This document shows, in pieces, positions 13,764 to 21,003 of a stretch of DNA of 33,093 nt. The stretch spans positions 1-33,093 of the forward strand of contig VGZG01000034.1 of the NCBI GenBank assembly GCA_016872675.1, in the 5' to 3' direction. The DNA comes from Planctomycetota bacterium (GTDB taxonomy: Bacteria > Planctomycetota > UBA1135 > UBA2386). The translations under genes and the position numbers were made by a program. Under the pieces are notes generated by a model. The model saw only the letters and a program-made list of their open reading frames with translations, did not search any database and was not told where the DNA came from. How positions within the stretch are numbered: position 1 is the stretch's first letter; every line of letters begins with the position of its first letter.

Positions 13764-13889
13764 CCGCCCGTGGCCCCCGCCGTGCCGCACGCCGCTAGCG
13801 GTCGCCCCTCGCCTCGCGTGCCACGACCCGCCACGTTCGGTCCGGCGTGCACTTTGATGCACATATTCCCGGTAGCGGCCTCTTTCCAT

Positions 13890-13920
13890 GGAACCTGGGG
13901 CGCAATGCGCCCCGTCTGAA
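13890..13920 (+). promoter_or_regulatory. Candidate ECF-type promoter with a palindromic spacer, upstream of the sigma gene
   Basis: GGAACCT (13890-13896), an 18-bp spacer, then TCTGAA (13915-13920) resembles the RpoE-type consensus GGAACTT-N(15-19)-TCNNA. The spacer is almost wholly a perfect palindrome, GGGGCGC-AAT-GCGCCCC (13897-13913). The -10 ends only 4 nt before the ATG at 13925, so the transcript would be leaderless. The 9-mer CCATGGAAC occurs both at 13886 and at 13923 (over the start codon). Confidence 0.3.
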
Positions 13921-13924
13921 GCCC

Positions 13925-14545
13925 ATGGAACTGCTGCGCGATCCTGACGCCGAACTCGTGGCCGCGTGCCGCGAACCGGGCGCTGAGGGCTTCGAGGCGG
14001 CCTTCGAGATGCTCTTCGCCCGCTATCGCGAACGCGTCTACGCCGTCGCCTTCCGCGTCGTCGGCAACGCCGTCGACGCGATGGACGTCGTGCAGGAGAG
14101 CTTCGCGCTGCTGTTCCGCAAGCTGCACGCCTTCCGCGGCGTCTCGCTGTTCAGCACCTGGCTATTCCGCATCGTCGTGAACTGCAGCATCGACCATCGC
14201 CGCAAGCGCGATGGCGGCATCCGCGTGCGCGCGCTGAGCATCGAGGGTGTCGATGCCGTCGACGAATCGCCATCGCCGGAGTCGCAAGCGCTAGCCGTCG
14301 AGCTCGGCTGCCAGGTGCAACAGGCGATCTCGCTGCTGAGTCCCAAGCTGCGCGCCATCCTCGCCCTGCGCTACCTCGAAGACATGTCGTACGACGAGCT
14401 CGCGACCACGCTCGGCCTGTCGCTCGGCACCGTCAAGTCGCGCCTCGCCCGCGCGCATCTCGCTCTCGAAGCCGTCGTGCGCAATCGCTTCCCACACCTC
14501 GAGCACGGCCTTGCCGACCGCGCGGCCACGGGAGACGTCGGATGA
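13925..14545 (+). CDS. ECF-type RNA polymerase sigma factor
   Basis: 206 aa from the ATG at 13925; the frame opens 78 nt earlier at a GTG, but that extension runs through the palindrome and has no homologous feel. Region 2 is at about 25-95 (FEMLFARYRERVYAVAFRVV, DAMDVVQESFALLFRKL, FSTWLFRIVVNCSIDHRRKR) and region 4 at about 140-190 (LSPKLRAILALRYLEDMSYD, LATTLGLSLGTVKSRLARAH). Its stop overlaps the start of the anti-sigma gene by 4 nt (ATGA), so the two are translationally coupled. Together with the next two genes it makes a module like RpoE-RseA-RseB, responding to envelope signals; the target regulon is unknown. Confidence 0.95.
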   Translation: MELLRDPDAELVAACREPGAEGFEAAFEMLFARYRERVYAVAFRVVGNAVDAMDVVQESFALLFRKLHAFRGVSLFSTWLFRIVVNCSIDHRRKRDGGIRVRALSIEGVDAVDESPSPESQALAVELGCQVQQAISLLSPKLRAILALRYLEDMSYDELATTLGLSLGTVKSRLARAHLALEAVVRNRFPHLEHGLADRAATGDVG

Positions 14546-15144
14546 GCCACCCGCGCGATCCTGTCCATGGCACGCCGGCGGCGTGCCGCGCCTTCCTCGC
14601 GTCGCCCGAAGCGAACGCCAAGGACGCCGGCGAAGCGCCGCATGCGCGCGCGTGCGCAGCCTGCGCAGCGGCGCTGGCGCGGCGCCAACGCCTGATCGGC
14701 GCCTTGCGCCGGACGCCGACGCCGCCCGCTGCGCTCGCTACGCGCGAGTTCCTCGCCGGCATCCAGGAGCGCATCGTCGCCGGCGTCGAGGCTGCCAGCA
14801 CGCTGGCCCCGCACATCGCCGGCCCGGTCGAGGCGCCGGCCGCGCCGCTGCAGGCCGTGCTCGATGACCAACTCGCCTGCACACTGGCGACGCCGCCCGC
14901 GTCGCCCGGGGAGGTCCGCTGGCAGGGTGTCCGGCGCGCCGTCATCCACGACATCGCCATCCGCCGCGCCGCGCGCATACGTATCACCGTGTGGGTGAGC
15001 CTCGCCGGCGCTGCCGCTGCAGCGCTGTTCCTCGTGCTCGGCCCCGACGTTGACCGCGTCGCCACGCCGAAGATCGTCTTCGCCGACCTCATCTCCGCCC
15101 CGGCCGGCGACTTCACCGTCATCCGCCGCGGCGCCAACCGCTGA
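14542..15144 (+). CDS. Membrane-bound zinc-binding anti-sigma factor (ZAS type)
   Basis: 200 aa overlapping the sigma gene by 4 nt. The N-terminal cytoplasmic part has the zinc anti-sigma motif H34-x3-C38-x2-C41 (HARACAAC) with C15 as a possible fourth ligand. A single transmembrane helix follows at about 148-168 (ITVWVSLAGAAAAALFLVLG), and about 30 residues remain outside (KIVFADLISAP and on). Such proteins hold the ECF sigma factor at the membrane until a signal cuts or alters them. Placement directly behind the sigma gene supports the pairing. No recognised protease site can be read. Confidence 0.85.
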   Translation: MSHPRDPVHGTPAACRAFLASPEANAKDAGEAPHARACAACAAALARRQRLIGALRRTPTPPAALATREFLAGIQERIVAGVEAASTLAPHIAGPVEAPAAPLQAVLDDQLACTLATPPASPGEVRWQGVRRAVIHDIAIRRAARIRITVWVSLAGAAAAALFLVLGPDVDRVATPKIVFADLISAPAGDFTVIRRGANR

Positions 15145-15193
15145 GCCGCACCTACTTTCTCTCTTCGCCGCAACCGATAACATCGCCAACCTC

Positions 15194-16243
15194 ATGCGCC
15201 TCGTCTGCAACTCCGTGGCCCATCGAGCCCTGTGCGCGCTGACCCTCGTGGTTGCCGCGGCGCTGGCGCCGATCACCGTTGCGGTGGCGCAGGCCGACGA
15301 GTTCGCCCCGACGGCGACGCTGCAGACGCTCGATCAGGCGCAGCGCAGCCAGGACTACACGGTGGTCCAGATCCGCCGCTTCGTGACGCCGGCCGCCGCC
15401 GGCGTCGCCGCGTCGGTGACCAGCGTTCGCGAGCGCCTCGAGGTCGCCGCCAACGGCACTGCCAAGCCGTCGTTCGCGCTGACGTTCCTGGGCGTCGAAG
15501 GCGAGCCGACCGGTTCGCCGCTGCACCTGAAGTGGCAGCAGGCCTATGCCCGCCACGCCGCGCGGTTCTTCGGCCACGGCAGCTTCCGGGTGCGCAATCT
15601 GACCGTGGCGAACGCCAACTACACAATGCACGACTTCGGCGCCGTCACGCGCGTTGGCCGCTCGGCCCGCCGCCTGGTGGTGTTCCCGACGTCAGTAGAC
15701 AAATCGATCTGGCTCGTCGAGATCGACGACGCGACGGCCGTCAACCTCTACGCCGCCGAGTTCGACTCGAACCTCACCCTGCTGTCCGAGGTCGAGGCCG
15801 TCAGCTTCGTCGACTCGGTCGGCGGGTTCACGCCGTATGCATCGACCGCGACGACAGTCGCCGACTTCGCCGCCGGCAAGACCGCGATGGGCGATCCCGC
15901 CGGACTCGTCGAGCCCGCGTTGACGGCAACGAGCGAGTACCGCCTCGACCAAGTCGAGGTGCAGAACGACCCGCTGAATGGCTCCTGGACGATGACGCTG
16001 ACGTACACCGACGGCATCGATCAGTTCGTCGTGACGCAGTCGCCAGGCACGCCGGACGCCTTTGCCGCGCTGCCCGGCAAGGTCGCTGGCAGCACCGTGA
16101 TCGGCCGCTTCCGCGACGCGGCGATGTCCGCCCTGGTCTTCTGGGAAGGCGGCGTTTCGTTCCAGGTCGCTGGGCGCGGCTCGCTGCGGCGCCTCGACGA
16201 CCTCGCCAAGGACGTCTACCTGCAGGCGCTCTCGGACAACTGA
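15194..16243 (+). CDS. Exported RseB/MucB-like sensor protein of the sigma module
   Basis: 349 aa from the ATG at 15194, 49 nt after the anti-sigma stop; this start gives a signal peptide (MRLVCNSVAHRALCALTLVV, likely cut near VAVAQA). The mature part has two lobes as in MucB/RseB: an N-terminal LolA-like beta sheet (DYTVVQIRRFVTP, SVRERLEVAANG, SIWLVEIDDATAVNLYAAEF, LLSEVEAVSF) and a C-terminal lobe (MTLTYTDGIDQFVVTQS, VIGRFRDAAMSALVFWEGGV, LDDLAKDVYLQALS). RseB binds the periplasmic part of the anti-sigma factor and guards it from proteolysis. Identity as RseB is inferred from fold pattern and gene order; sequence likeness is low, so a plain LolA-fold lipoprotein-binding protein is the alternative. 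Confidence 0.6.
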   Translation: MRLVCNSVAHRALCALTLVVAAALAPITVAVAQADEFAPTATLQTLDQAQRSQDYTVVQIRRFVTPAAAGVAASVTSVRERLEVAANGTAKPSFALTFLGVEGEPTGSPLHLKWQQAYARHAARFFGHGSFRVRNLTVANANYTMHDFGAVTRVGRSARRLVVFPTSVDKSIWLVEIDDATAVNLYAAEFDSNLTLLSEVEAVSFVDSVGGFTPYASTATTVADFAAGKTAMGDPAGLVEPALTATSEYRLDQVEVQNDPLNGSWTMTLTYTDGIDQFVVTQSPGTPDAFAALPGKVAGSTVIGRFRDAAMSALVFWEGGVSFQVAGRGSLRRLDDLAKDVYLQALSDN

Positions 16244-16835: not shown

Positions 16836-16964
16836 AGTGCGGATGCGCCGATGCCGCCGGCCGCACCGCGGCCCCGGCCGGCCCCCCGGCGTCCAGGCGC
16901 AAACGTCGGTGCCACACGGACTTCATGGCCGAGTCCCGGAATGCCGATGCCGTTGCGGAACGGC

Positions 16965-18251
16965 ATGAACACGGCACACGCGGGGAAACTCGGGACGACC
17001 GGCAGGGCGCGCGTCGCCTTGCTCACCAAGGACCACGGCTCGGCGCTGGCCACCGCGCTTACGCGCGATGGGCACGAACTCTTCGAGTGCGAGACCTGGC
17101 AGGATCTCAGCACCGCCGGCGAGGCCGCGTTCGACCTGATCCTGTGCGACGCCGCGACCGCCACCGCGCAGGCGACCACGATGGGCTGCCCGGTGCTTTT
17201 CGTCGGCAATGGCGAGGGCACGCCGGCGGAGCGCACGTTCACCGCCGAGGCGATCGAGTCGGGCCTTGATGCGATCCTGTCGCTCGCCGTGGCGCTCGCG
17301 GAGACGGCAAAGCGCTGCGAAGACCTCGAGTCGCTGCTGCAGGGCTTGCACACGGGTTCAGCGCTGGTCGGTGTGACGCCGGTCATGCGTCGCCTGCAGG
17401 GCGCGATCAGCCGGGCCGCGGACTGCGACCTGACGACGCTCGTTCATGGCCCGACCGGCTCTGGCAAGTCGCTCGTCGCCCGCATGGTCCACGCCAAGAG
17501 CCGGCGCGCGACCAACCCGTTGACGACACTGAACGCCGCCGGCACGACGACCGAGACGCTCGTCGCCGCACTGGAGCAGGCGCGCAACTCGACGATCATC
17601 ATCGAGGACGTCGAGAAGCTGCCCGCCGCCGCGCAGGCGTTGCTGGTGAAGCACCTCAAGGAGCGCGCGCCAGCCACCGCCGCGACCGCGCCGCGCATCG
17701 TCGCCACCACGGCCGCCCACCTGACCGACCTGATTCCCCGCGGCGCGTTCCGCGAGGACTTGTGCCTGCGCCTGCACGCCCTGCCGATCCAGGTGCCTGG
17801 CCTGCACGAACGGCTGGACGACATCGGCCTGCTGGCCCAGGCGGCGCTCGACGCGACCACCGTCGGCAAGCGCGCGCTGACGACCGACGCCATCGCGCAC
17901 CTGATGACGACGACGTGGTCTGGCAACGTCACCCAATTGCAGGCGACGGTGCAGCGCGCCGCGCTTCTGAGCAACGGCAGCGTGATCCAGCGCGAGCACC
18001 TGTCGACGACGCCCGCGACGACCTCGACGCCAAACGCGACAGCAAACCACGCGACTGCGACCACGGCGCCGCGCGCCGAGACCGAACTCACCGAGGCCGA
18101 CGTCCTGCCGTTCGAGCTGGAAGAGCGCCGCTTGCTGGCGCGCGCCCTGCGCGCAACGAAGGGCCAGGTTCGCCGCGCCGCGCAGTTGCTCGGCATCGGT
18201 CGCGCGACCCTGTACCGCAAGATCCAGCAGTACCAGCTGCCGCTGCGCTGA
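16965..18251 (+). CDS. Fis-type AAA+ regulator lacking the GAFTGA sigma-54 contact loop
   Basis: 428 aa from the ATG at 16965; the frame opens at 16851 but that extension is Pro/Arg-rich and the receiver-like fold begins only at RARVALLTKDH. Residues about 12-110 form a pseudo-receiver domain without a clear phospho-Asp. The AAA+ core (about 130-350) has Walker A GPTGSGKS, a Walker B-like STIIIEDVEKLP, the arginine-finger region FREDLCLRL and the sensor II-like WSGNVTQLQ. The GAFTGA loop and its ELFGHE flank, needed to touch sigma-54, are absent: NPLTTLNAAG runs almost directly into the Walker B part. A C-terminal Fis-type helix-turn-helix (QVRRAAQLLGIGRATLYRKI) should bind DNA. It probably regulates transcription without activating sigma-54. 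Confidence 0.85.
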   Translation: MNTAHAGKLGTTGRARVALLTKDHGSALATALTRDGHELFECETWQDLSTAGEAAFDLILCDAATATAQATTMGCPVLFVGNGEGTPAERTFTAEAIESGLDAILSLAVALAETAKRCEDLESLLQGLHTGSALVGVTPVMRRLQGAISRAADCDLTTLVHGPTGSGKSLVARMVHAKSRRATNPLTTLNAAGTTTETLVAALEQARNSTIIIEDVEKLPAAAQALLVKHLKERAPATAATAPRIVATTAAHLTDLIPRGAFREDLCLRLHALPIQVPGLHERLDDIGLLAQAALDATTVGKRALTTDAIAHLMTTTWSGNVTQLQATVQRAALLSNGSVIQREHLSTTPATTSTPNATANHATATTAPRAETELTEADVLPFELEERRLLARALRATKGQVRRAAQLLGIGRATLYRKIQQYQLPLR

Positions 18252-18282: not shown

Positions 18283-18918
18283 ATGGCCGGCGTGCCGATC
18301 CTCTACCGCGACGACCGCCTGGTGGTCGTCGACAAGCCGGCTGGCACACTCGTGGTGCCGGCGCCAGGGCGCCGCGGCGAGACGTTTGTCGACCGGTTGA
18401 CCCGCGAGTTTGGCAAGCGCGTGCTGGCCGTGCACCGGCTCGACGAAGACACCACCGGCGCCATGGTCTTCGCCCTCGACGACGAGGCGCGCGTGGCGAT
18501 GGAAGAACTCTTCCGCCGCCACGAGGTGACGCGTGAGTACCTGGCGCTCGCGTCGGCCGCGCCATCGCCGCCGACCGGTCGCGTCGAGTCGCAGCTCGTC
18601 GAGGGCGACGACGGCGTCGTGCGGGTGGCCGCGCGCGGCGGCCAGCGCGCGGTAACGCACTACGAGACCATCGCGCGCCGCGGCCGCTGCACGCTGCTGC
18701 GCTGCCAACTGGAGACGGGCCGCCGCAACCAGATCCGCGCGCACCTCGCCGCGCTCGGTTGCCCGCTGGCAGGCGACCGCAAGTACGGCTTCCGCCCCCG
18801 CGGCGACGAACGCTTCTCTAGGGTCATGCTGCACAGCTGGCGACTGCGCTTCGCGCATCCATTCGGCGCAGCGACGATCGTCGCTGAGGCGCCGCCCGAG
18901 GCCGCCCTGGCGCCGTGA
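18283..18918 (+). CDS. RluA-family pseudouridine synthase
   Basis: 211 aa, shorter than full RluA-type enzymes because the N-terminal S4 domain is missing. Motif I is YRDDRLVVVDKPAGTLVVP, motif II holds the catalytic Asp54 in HRLDEDTTG, and motif III is LETGRRNQIRAHLAALG followed by GDRKYG. It converts uridine to pseudouridine in rRNA or tRNA; the target base cannot be told. TATCCT (18270-18275) is 7 nt before the ATG, a possible -10 of a leaderless message. The preceding AAA+ gene ends 31 nt upstream. Confidence 0.92.
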   Translation: MAGVPILYRDDRLVVVDKPAGTLVVPAPGRRGETFVDRLTREFGKRVLAVHRLDEDTTGAMVFALDDEARVAMEELFRRHEVTREYLALASAAPSPPTGRVESQLVEGDDGVVRVAARGGQRAVTHYETIARRGRCTLLRCQLETGRRNQIRAHLAALGCPLAGDRKYGFRPRGDERFSRVMLHSWRLRFAHPFGAATIVAEAPPEAALAP

Positions 18919-18952: not shown

Positions 18953-20302
18953 GTGAGGGTGCCCATCGAGTTCTCGGAGCGGTCGTTGCTCGCCTTCCTG
19001 GCGAGCACGCGCTTGCCCGTTGTCGCGCGTCTCCGGTCGTGGATCGACGGCTTCGCGCTCGTCGGCGCCGCCGCGTGCGGCGCCGGTGCGCTCGCCTCGC
19101 TTGCCTTCGCGCCCGACGGCTTCTGGTCGCCAGCCGCGCCGCTCTCCGGCGCCTGTCCGACGCTCGCTGCGATGCCGTGGTTTCTGCTGGCGTGGTGGAT
19201 GCGTCGGCGCGAGCACGTGCAGCGCGCCGCGACGTTGCTGCTGTTCGCGTGCGCGCTGCTCGCCGCGCTCGCCAGTTGGCCGCGCGGGATGATTGACGCC
19301 GCGTGGTATGCGCAGCCCGCGATCGCCGCTCTCGCCGGCCTCACGCTCGGCGTCGCGCCCGGACTGCTGCTGGCCGTCGCCGTTGCTGCGACGTTGCTGC
19401 TCGCCGGCCGTTTCGCGCCGATTCCGCCGGCGCTCACCGCAGCTGAGCCATTGTTCGTCTCGCACTCGCTCGTGCTGGCCGCCGGCGCGCTCGCGCTGGC
19501 CTTGGTCGGCGCGATCACGAATCGGTTGCTCTACGTCGCGCTGTTGACGGCGCAGGCCGAACGGCGCGACGCGCTCGAATCGACGCATGCTCTTCGCCGG
19601 CGCGAGAAGCTGCTCCGCCATGCGCTGCGCGTCGATACCGTCGGCGCGCTCGCTGGCATGGTTTGCCACCAACTGCGCAACACCTTCCAGGTGCTGATGG
19701 GTCACGTCACGCTCGGCGCAATCGCCAGTGACGATGAGTGCCGGCGACGGCTCGAGATGATCGAACAAGCCGTCGAGCAGGCGAAGCCGCTGCTCGACCA
19801 ACTGATGCGCTTGTCGCACCCGGACGACGGCGCAGTCGCGGAGATCGACGTCGCTGACGCGGTCCGTCGCTTCCTGGATCACGCAGCGCACGTGATGCCG
19901 AGCAACATCCGGCTCGCGGGCGACATTGGCCCGGGTCCGGCGCGCGCGACGCTCGACCCGCAGGCGCTGCAGCACGCGCTCTGGAACCTCGCGATCAACG
20001 CGCGCCAGGCGATCACCGGCGAAGGCACGATCACCGTTCGCTGCCGCCGCACGGCGGGGGCCGTCGTGATCGAGGTCGGCGACACCGGCTGCGGCATGCC
20101 GGCAGACGTGCGGCGCCGCATTTTCGACCCGTACTTCACGACAAAGCCGGCAGGCCAGGGCACCGGACTGGGGCTCACCGCCGTCGCGCGCTTCGTGCGC
20201 AGTTGCCGCGGCGAGATCGCGGTCGACAGCGAAGTCGGCCAGGGCACGACGTTCCGCCTGCTGCTGCCGACCAACGACGGCAGCCTCAGCGCCTACGCCT
20301 GA
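18953..20302 (+). CDS. Membrane-bound sensor histidine kinase, orphan
   Basis: 449 aa from the GTG at 18953, the only start that keeps the first membrane helix. The N-terminal half (about 25-200) has five or six hydrophobic helices with short loops and no large periplasmic domain. It is followed by a coiled region, then the dimerisation/phosphoacceptor helix with H239 in GMVCHQLRNTFQVLMGH. The ATP-binding domain has N box LWNLAINARQA, G1 DTGCGMPADV, F box FDPYFTTK and G2 GQGTGLGLTAV. It autophosphorylates and passes phosphate to a response regulator, but none is encoded nearby. TAGCAT (18938-18943) lies 9 nt before the GTG. It is convergent with cyaY (13 nt). Confidence 0.93.
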   Translation: MRVPIEFSERSLLAFLASTRLPVVARLRSWIDGFALVGAAACGAGALASLAFAPDGFWSPAAPLSGACPTLAAMPWFLLAWWMRRREHVQRAATLLLFACALLAALASWPRGMIDAAWYAQPAIAALAGLTLGVAPGLLLAVAVAATLLLAGRFAPIPPALTAAEPLFVSHSLVLAAGALALALVGAITNRLLYVALLTAQAERRDALESTHALRRREKLLRHALRVDTVGALAGMVCHQLRNTFQVLMGHVTLGAIASDDECRRRLEMIEQAVEQAKPLLDQLMRLSHPDDGAVAEIDVADAVRRFLDHAAHVMPSNIRLAGDIGPGPARATLDPQALQHALWNLAINARQAITGEGTITVRCRRTAGAVVIEVGDTGCGMPADVRRRIFDPYFTTKPAGQGTGLGLTAVARFVRSCRGEIAVDSEVGQGTTFRLLLPTNDGSLSAYA

Positions 20303-20315
20303 CCAGCGGCCGGCG

Positions 20316-20642
20316 TCAGACGCGGACGGGGCGCCCGAGGCGCCGCGTCAGCACCTCGCCGAGCACATCCGGCAAAGCGCCGCGGCCCTTGGTGTCGACC
20401 CACTGCCCGTTGGCATCCAAGGCGAAGTGCCACGCCTGGGCTCCCTCGGCGAGCCAGAGCTGGTTGGCGGCGGCCTGCCGGTTCAGGATGCAATTTCGCT
20501 TGTCCGCAAACACGATCTTGAGCACGCCTCCGGACAGGTCGGCCTCGACCTCGTCAGGGTCGAAGCGATCAAGTGCCGCCAGCAGCCGCTGGAAGCACTC
20601 GTCAGCGCGCCGCAGGAAGTCCTGGTCACCGGAAGCGGTCAT
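20316..20642 (-). CDS. cyaY: CyaY/frataxin iron-binding protein
   Basis: 108 aa, almost the length of E. coli CyaY (106). The ATG at 20642 was chosen because the family begins with a helix exactly there (DQDFLRRADECFQRLLAALD), rich in acidic residues that bind iron. The beta sheet follows: EADLSGGVLKIVF, CILNRQAAANQLWLAEG with the conserved N-R-Q and the Trp-Leu, WHFALDANGQW, then the last helix LPDVLGEVLTRRL. Frataxin tunes iron-sulfur cluster assembly on IscS-IscU. No isc gene is in the window. The gene lies about 100 nt downstream of a strong terminator and so must have its own promoter. Confidence 0.88.
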   Translation of the reverse strand: MTASGDQDFLRRADECFQRLLAALDRFDPDEVEADLSGGVLKIVFADKRNCILNRQAAANQLWLAEGAQAWHFALDANGQWVDTKGRGALPDVLGEVLTRRLGRPVRV

Positions 20643-21003
20643 CGAGCCGCATGGTGGGATCTGCGAGCCTGCTGCGCCAGAGGCGGCTTGCGGTCGCAGC
20701 CTGAGCGACGCCGAATCGGCGCGCACGCAGCGAGGCGCGGCCGAAAAAAGAGTGGCCGGCGATTCTCTCCCAGAATCGCCGGCCACGGTGCCCCGGCCAC
20801 GCAATTTTGCCCTCTCGAAGCGCCAGCTTCCTTGCGGTTGCCAGCGCCGCGCGGCCGGGACCACTCGTCCCATGCGGTCACGTAAACGTCGGAGAGCGCA
20901 AAACTTTCCCAGCGAGTGCGCTTTTGCGCGCGCTTTCGCGGTACGCGCCGGCACATGCGCCAAAACGGCCCAGGCTGGCGCCGCGCGATCGCGGCTCTTG
21001 CGG
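20643..21003. other. 361-bp intergenic interval, structured, with a terminator
   Basis: Between cyaY and the moxR gene, both on -. It holds the terminator at 20744-20786, and an 8-bp inverted repeat GCGCAAAA (20896-20903) / TTTTGCGC (20922-20929) in an AT-richer part. The minus-strand RNA from the moxR stop to the terminator would be about 260 nt: either a long 3' UTR or a separate small RNA. No ORF with convincing codon use was found. Confidence 0.5.
20744..20786 (-). terminator. Rho-independent terminator after moxR or an sRNA
   Basis: A perfect 15-bp stem (20752-20766 with 20772-20786), loop of 5 nt (CTCCC on +), followed on the minus strand by TC and six T residues (complement of A 20744-20749). 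It is the clearest intrinsic terminator in the window. The transcript it ends comes from the direction of the moxR gene. Confidence 0.88.

Follow-up and report, generated by a model that had tools for sequence, protein, structure and literature searches.

A Planctomycetota family of NtrC-type AAA+ regulators that has lost the GAFTGA loop and is predicted to act without sigma-54

The window analysed here, a stretch of 33,093 nucleotides, is one contig (C34) of a Planctomycetota genome (G000) that comprises 3.58 Mb in 182 contigs. An open reading frame on its forward strand (16965..18251) encodes P0001, a 428-residue NtrC-type regulator that has no GAFTGA motif. A start codon at 16965, rather than 16851, is supported by an N-terminus resembling MTTALIGK that most orthologues share. 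P0001 begins with a receiver-like region, which is followed by an AAA+ domain of the NtrC type with its lid and by a Fis-type helix-turn-helix (HTH), and matches the Pfam models Sigma54_activat (74.5 bits), Sigma54_activ_2 (62.7 bits), AAA lid and HTH_8 (1.4e-11). These scores lie well above the cut-offs of the sigma-54 domains, so that automatic annotation can miscall the protein as sigma-54-dependent, which it very probably is not. An AlphaFold2 model (30 sequences; mean pLDDT 84.9, pTM 0.65) contains an alternation of strands and helices resembling that of receivers, a linker helix of 30 residues (101-130; 17265..17354, forward strand) and the AAA+ core. The degenerate receiver-like domain (residues 15-100; 17007..17264, forward strand) was delimited from these strands and helices, from residue counts and from an alignment to the orthologue L099. 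The best structural match over the full length is NtrX (5m7p; Z 25.5, rmsd 12.3, 383 residues aligned), and the AAA domain matches PspF (4qos; Z 24.2, rmsd 2.9, 216 residues aligned).

P0001 lies within a set of genes that we followed over 30 named loci, where some absences reflect contig ends (downstream in L084, upstream in L081 and L127). The most constant neighbour on the same strand is an RluA-family pseudouridine synthase (18283..18918, forward strand; 27 of the 30 loci), followed in the window by a histidine kinase with H, N, G1, F and G2 boxes (18953..20302, forward strand; 21 loci) and, on the strand opposite to P0001, by a frataxin/CyaY-like gene (20316-20963; near the locus in 27). 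Upstream lie a gene for a 139-residue helical-hairpin protein, P0002 (16416..16835, forward strand; 24 loci), and an ECF sigma factor with Sigma70_r2 and r4_2 domains (13847..14545, forward strand; 23 loci); a MoxR gene is likewise found in 23. The stretch 13847-16243 encodes the ECF sigma factor, then a possible anti-sigma factor and then an RseB-like protein, the last two named from position and sequence as neither has a Pfam match; the first and third of these genes lie upstream in 23 of the 30 loci, and the anti-sigma gene was recovered by BLAST in only 9. The downstream genes are missing in L095 and L096, and in the genome of the former (G024) the kinase and the frataxin-like gene are found about 160 kb away. 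Five loci (L100-L103 and L105) have neither the cluster of ECF and P0002 genes nor the kinase at this place, and in three of them (L101, L103 and L105) the RluA gene lies 1.8-4.4 kb from the reference point.

A preliminary description of this locus had proposed that P0001 may act together with P0002. It wanted the conservation of the pair checked: in 24 of the 30 loci the P0002 gene precedes that of P0001 and has the same orientation, which counts in favour of a complex. However, in six genomes of the family (L163-L168) the ECF and RseB-like genes are still next to P0002, but P0001 lies on a different contig (five genomes) or was not found (G020). Moreover, P0002 has matches in 56 of the 61 genomes searched, including 24 of the 27 outside the window's family, where P0001 has no orthologue-level match. 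We therefore reject P0002 as the partner, since within the family it follows the ECF cluster, and regard a P0001-P0002 complex as very unlikely. Outside the family, an ECF match was near P0002 in 6 of 14 stretches and absent from 8, so the link between P0002 and the ECF gene is firm only within the family. P0002 is itself a predicted helical hairpin that ends in a conserved RDYVE tail; its two cysteines, C30 and C70, do not vary among the 19 members aligned. It has no Pfam match at E 1 (its members give scattered weak ones, the best at 0.0038), no sequence match in the PDB better than E 0.24 and no fold match at E 0.001, and thus forms a family without a match to known families.

A search of the 61 genomes revealed orthologues of P0001 in no family other than that of the window, where 32 of 34 genomes (G000-G033) have a match at E < 1e-68; none was found in G020 and G026, the latter genome being 62% complete. 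In the 27 genomes from other families of the order the best match, at 1.2e-32, is of paralogue level. The listed orthologues have no stop within their open frames. Residue counts were taken from an alignment (A3) of P0001 with 29 named loci, 30 sequences in all, which leaves out three loci cut by contig ends (L127, L118 and L128) and two distant ones (L106 and L113). A separate alignment, which largely overlaps with A3, comprises 30 of the 32 orthologues, P0001 among them, as the loci L018-L047.

The L1 loop that bears GAFTGA, a feature of sigma-54-dependent enhancer-binding proteins (EBPs), is absent from P0001. From the Walker A lysine (K168) to Walker B there are 46 residues in all 30 sequences of A3, as against 65 (11 proteins) or 66 (one protein) in the 12 other EBPs of the host genome, of which 11 carry GAFTGA or GSFTGA and one GAFTDA. 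In the alignment, which the preliminary description had named as the check, a clean deletion lies between residues 203 and 204 (17571..17576, forward strand) and leaves the segment 19 residues shorter than in canonical proteins; the gap is also visible in all 30 sequences of the L018-L047 alignment. The deletion is thus real, as had been claimed, and more general than had been stated. That P0001 exceeds the Pfam cut-off for Sigma54_activat could be taken as a sign of a diverged loop that keeps its contact with sigma-54, or of a gene in decay. The alignment gap and the constant spacing rule out a diverged loop, and the residues of the P-loop and the HTH are invariant across the alignment; we consider either explanation extremely improbable. 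Nor is the deletion a consequence of sigma-54 loss, because the host genome, when searched for rpoN as had been suggested, proved to hold two such genes (L001 and L002, on other contigs) as well as the 12 EBPs with their L1 loop. Those EBPs, P0001 and two other AAA+ proteins (L016 and L017) account for all 15 PF14532 matches in the genome. The two rpoN genes differ from one another and both appear intact, within a single genome of 3.6 Mb.

The deletion is accompanied by losses that the preliminary description had overlooked. The second loop, L2, or the stretch before sensor I (17658..17693, forward strand), is 3-8 residues shorter in all 30 sequences: Walker B and the sensor I arginine are 28-33 residues apart, as against 36 in 12 of 12 canonical EBPs of the host. 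Walker B (17604..17609, forward strand) reads Glu-Asp in the window instead of the canonical Asp-Glu, E214 replacing the aspartate in 30 of 30 sequences and D215 the catalytic glutamate. This second position is Asp in 17 of them, Asn in five, Ser in three, Gly and Ala in two each and Glu in one. The switch asparagine, that of the LNCAA stretch and presumably equivalent to PspF N64, is also not conserved, with Asn in only 3 of 30 sequences; P0001 is one of the three, which counts against the reading that we prefer. Sensor II (17931..17933, forward strand) had been described as kept. Contrary to that description, the arginine of its PGNVREL motif is gone from every sequence of A3 (Ala in 17, Thr in nine, Ser in three and Gly in one), and P0001 has T323 in its place.

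What has been retained is equally uniform. The Walker A motif GPTGSGKS (residues 162-169; 17448..17471, forward strand) keeps G162, G165, G167 and K168 in 30 of 30 sequences, as does the RxDxxxR arginine-finger motif its R263, D265 and R269 (17751..17771, forward strand), and a threonine is found at sensor I (Thr248) throughout. The Fis-type HTH (residues 384-423; 18114..18233, forward strand; HTH_8 1.4e-11) is nearly invariant and is the stretch with the most invariant columns. In these three motifs the preliminary description was right.

The roles of Walker B, the switch asparagine, L1 and L2 and the RxDxxxR motif are known from PspF and NtrC1 (PMC7175178, PMC3419264). There, the PspF equivalents of the residues lost from P0001 are needed for hydrolysis and for movement of L1 and L2, and the equivalents of those kept serve nucleotide binding and subunit contact (PMC7175178, PMC3419264). 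The PspF ATPase is reported to fall from a Vmax of 39.5 per min to 0.15 in E108A and 0.23 in D107A, K42A to abolish it, and the RxDxxxR motif to work in trans (PMC3419264).

The sigma-54 independence predicted for P0001 is well supported, as every one of the 30 sequences lacks L1, has a shortened L2 and departs from the canonical residues at Walker B and sensor II. The ability to bind ATP looks kept, although the Glu in place of the Walker B Asp could also lower it; hydrolysis, in contrast, is probably absent because the catalytic glutamate and the sensor II arginine have been lost. The earlier proposal that ATP serves something other than opening sigma-54 promoters therefore stands as far as sigma-54 is concerned, and less so for the use of ATP. 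Taken literally, it would mean that P0001 still hydrolyses ATP and that the residual motor remodels another target. In its favour, Walker A, RxDxxxR and the sensor I threonine are kept, the catalytic glutamate is replaced in 17 of 30 sequences, the window's included, by an Asp that might allow slow hydrolysis, and there is a precedent in the GAFTGA-less NtrC of Caulobacter, both Walker motifs of which are reported to be needed in vivo (PMC10274813), so that loss of the loop alone implies no loss of hydrolysis. Yet glutamate occupies the catalytic position in one sequence of 30, the sensor II arginine is found in none, the switch asparagine in three, and both substrate loops are reduced in all; a residual motor seems to us quite improbable. 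We consider it likely that P0001 is instead a sigma-54-independent, DNA-binding regulator of transcription, derived from a response regulator of the receiver-AAA+-Fis type, which would use ATP for assembly.

The N-terminal domain had been described as receiver-like and without an evident phospho-Asp. The domain is indeed degenerate, lacking the acidic pair (VALLTKD, where L099 has VLLVDDE) and the lysine (the KP position of L099) of canonical response regulators, but an aspartate, D62, does sit at the phospho-Asp position when it is aligned to the receiver of L099. That position is Asp in 23 sequences of A3, His in four and Glu in three. The receiver of L099 itself looks intact (VLLVDDE, LLDVMLPD, MMSG, LVKP), and that of the other orthologues is degraded. 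In L088, L089, L091 and L092 the receiver Asp is replaced by His though the adjoining histidine kinase keeps its boxes.

These residues also bear on whether P0001 is a working response regulator, phosphorylated on D62 by the adjoining kinase, a possibility that is compatible with our preferred reading. The aspartate is present in the window and in 23 of 30 sequences, the kinase H-box is intact in 24 of 24, and the kinase has been kept even where it is unlinked (G024 and G029) and adjoins the intact-looking receiver of L099. The missing acidic pair and lysine of the window protein argue against it, as does the replacement of the Asp by His or Glu in seven sequences, six of which (L087, L088, L089, L091, L092 and L098) still adjoin the kinase; furthermore, the kinase may serve another regulator. 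We consider a working response regulator of this kind unlikely. A search of 12 chosen genomes located the kinase in G000, G015, G024, G026 and G029 and, at E 1e-40, not in G010, G013, G018, G019, G020, G021 and G028, six of which have P0001 (G020 does not). From this pattern of presence and absence the kinase tracks a part of the family, whether or not it is linked to the regulator, but a single loss in one branch may account for the pattern.

Upstream of P0001 we found a promoter-like bipartite element, CTTCA-N18-CCGAT (16921..16948, forward strand), the ends of which lie 44 and 17 bases ahead of the start codon. Its spacing is constant in all 25 compared loci, with the first half reading [CG][TC]TCA, although the motif was derived from these same 25 loci. 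At the same offset, six divergent loci have CTTCA (three), one mismatch to it (two) or no such half (L103); of the 217 occurrences of CCGAT in these six, 7 have a first half with at most one mismatch at that offset. The pattern TTCAY-N15-TGCCGAT occurs once in the host genome, before P0001, and one to three times in each of eight other genomes of the family, one occurrence always being before the regulator. Other sites were sought with the full 28-base pattern, allowing up to two mismatches. In G000 it matches exactly at a single place and with two mismatches at 22, but nowhere with one; control patterns, written backwards or with the spacing one base too long, gave 2 and 11. There are four further places with one mismatch in G001, and G006 has five of this kind together with another exact one. 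A weight-matrix scan of 24 loci returned 20 other matches, and an equally large first-order Markov shuffle returned 18. A regulon controlled through the element is thus not apparent, as no second site stands out in these scans. The element may serve as a promoter read by a rare sigma factor, since GCCGAT is similar to the -10 element of sigma-28 promoters, or as an operator of P0001 itself. A perfect 8-bp inverted repeat, ATGCCGTT-GCGG-AACGGCAT, lies at 16947-16966 and reaches into the start codon of P0001; inspected by eye, it is not kept in the compared relatives, many of which share only ATGCC/GGCAT arms.

In a quick tree search of 62 rows, the P0001 family and L113 formed one group of 31 rows (SH-aLRT 99), and the nearest rows that bear the loop were L106 and the EBP L005 of the window's own genome (supports 90 and 86). 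L113 is without the loop, has Glu at Walker B and an RluA gene nearby and lacks the FREDL arginine-finger segment; its placement is unsure because of its long branch. L106, a protein from a Planctomycetota MAG with a receiver, GAFTGA and Fis domain, shares with P0001 the C-terminus FEEEER...IGRATLYRKIQ; unlike P0001, it has GAFTGA, an intact-looking receiver and Asp-Glu at Walker B. A motif scan detected no loop in five proteins from Rhodobacterales and Rhizobium, but these branch elsewhere in the tree, and their loop loss therefore looks independent. The simplest account is that a normal receiver-AAA+-Fis response regulator lost the loop once and that the receiver decayed later. We also asked whether other families of the order have a canonical ancestor at the corresponding position, and none was seen: P0001, RluA and the kinase all lacked a match in the flanks (about 1.5 kb) of 16 frataxin-like genes.

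The mechanism that we propose starts from what the sequences show: the elements linking ATP hydrolysis with the remodelling of sigma-54 (L1, part of L2, the switch asparagine, the catalytic glutamate and sensor II) have been lost or altered, and those that persist are the P-loop, a carboxylate at Walker B, the arginine-finger motif, which acts in trans, and the Fis HTH. ATP bound between subunits would hold an oligomer together without appreciable hydrolysis, and the oligomer would bind DNA and act on promoters of the sigma-70 or ECF type, as an activator or a repressor. Its oligomeric state may be set by the pseudo-receiver and the long linker helix, and in most of the family may be influenced by the adjoining histidine kinase, with phosphorylation used partially at most. 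More tentatively, it is possible, if doubtful as a whole, that in this family a sigma-54 motor has become an oligomer that is locked by ATP, does not hydrolyse it and binds DNA, steered by the kinase via the degenerate receiver and expressed from a dedicated promoter or self-operator. If so, L1, a portion of L2, the Glu switch and sensor II would have been lost in one coherent dismantling of the power stroke that left nucleotide-dependent assembly in place. The orthologues offer a natural series, from L099, with an intact-looking receiver and no loop, to most others, with a degraded receiver and the kinase, and to L100-L103 and L105, degraded and without the kinase at the locus. With this series one can test what an AAA+ activator needs for assembly and what it needs for the power stroke, as well as the way in which a receiver without its acid pocket may still respond to a kinase.

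EBP paralogues without GAFTGA are already known, and P0001, with the AAA+ domain and Fis HTH of the NtrC family and a deleted L1, is one of them. A description of the P0001 family itself was not found in the PMC papers searched, which miss most subscription papers; the main text of PMC3162934 does not contain the word Planctomycet, and PMC12316311, the one paper among them with both GAFTGA and Planctomycetes, uses the motif as a filter. According to Francke et al. 2011 (PMC3162934), GAFTGA is defective or deleted in TyrR, DhaR and HupR, reported to be sigma-70-dependent, and in VpsR and YplP, judged probably not sigma-54-dependent; P0001 has a defective loop in common with all five, and the contexts differ. 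Brucella NtrX (5m7n/5m7p) is the best match of P0001 in the PDB by both sequence and fold and has no GAFTGA in the aligned stretch; unlike P0001, however, it keeps Asp-Glu at Walker B and the arginine of GNLRQL, and P0001 scores 149.4 against a cut-off of 600 with the NCBIfam NtrX model, which places it outside NtrX. By their published description, the NtrC proteins of Rhodobacter capsulatus and Caulobacter are likewise of the receiver-AAA+-Fis type with L1 deleted (PMC10274813). Both are reported to act at sigma-70 promoters, and R. capsulatus NtrC, the functional precedent for our reading, to need ATP binding rather than hydrolysis; phosphorylation of the receiver Asp is reported to be required in R. 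capsulatus NtrC, and this Asp to be important in that of Caulobacter (PMC10274813). P0001 differs in that its receiver is degenerate and that L2, the catalytic glutamate and sensor II are changed as well.
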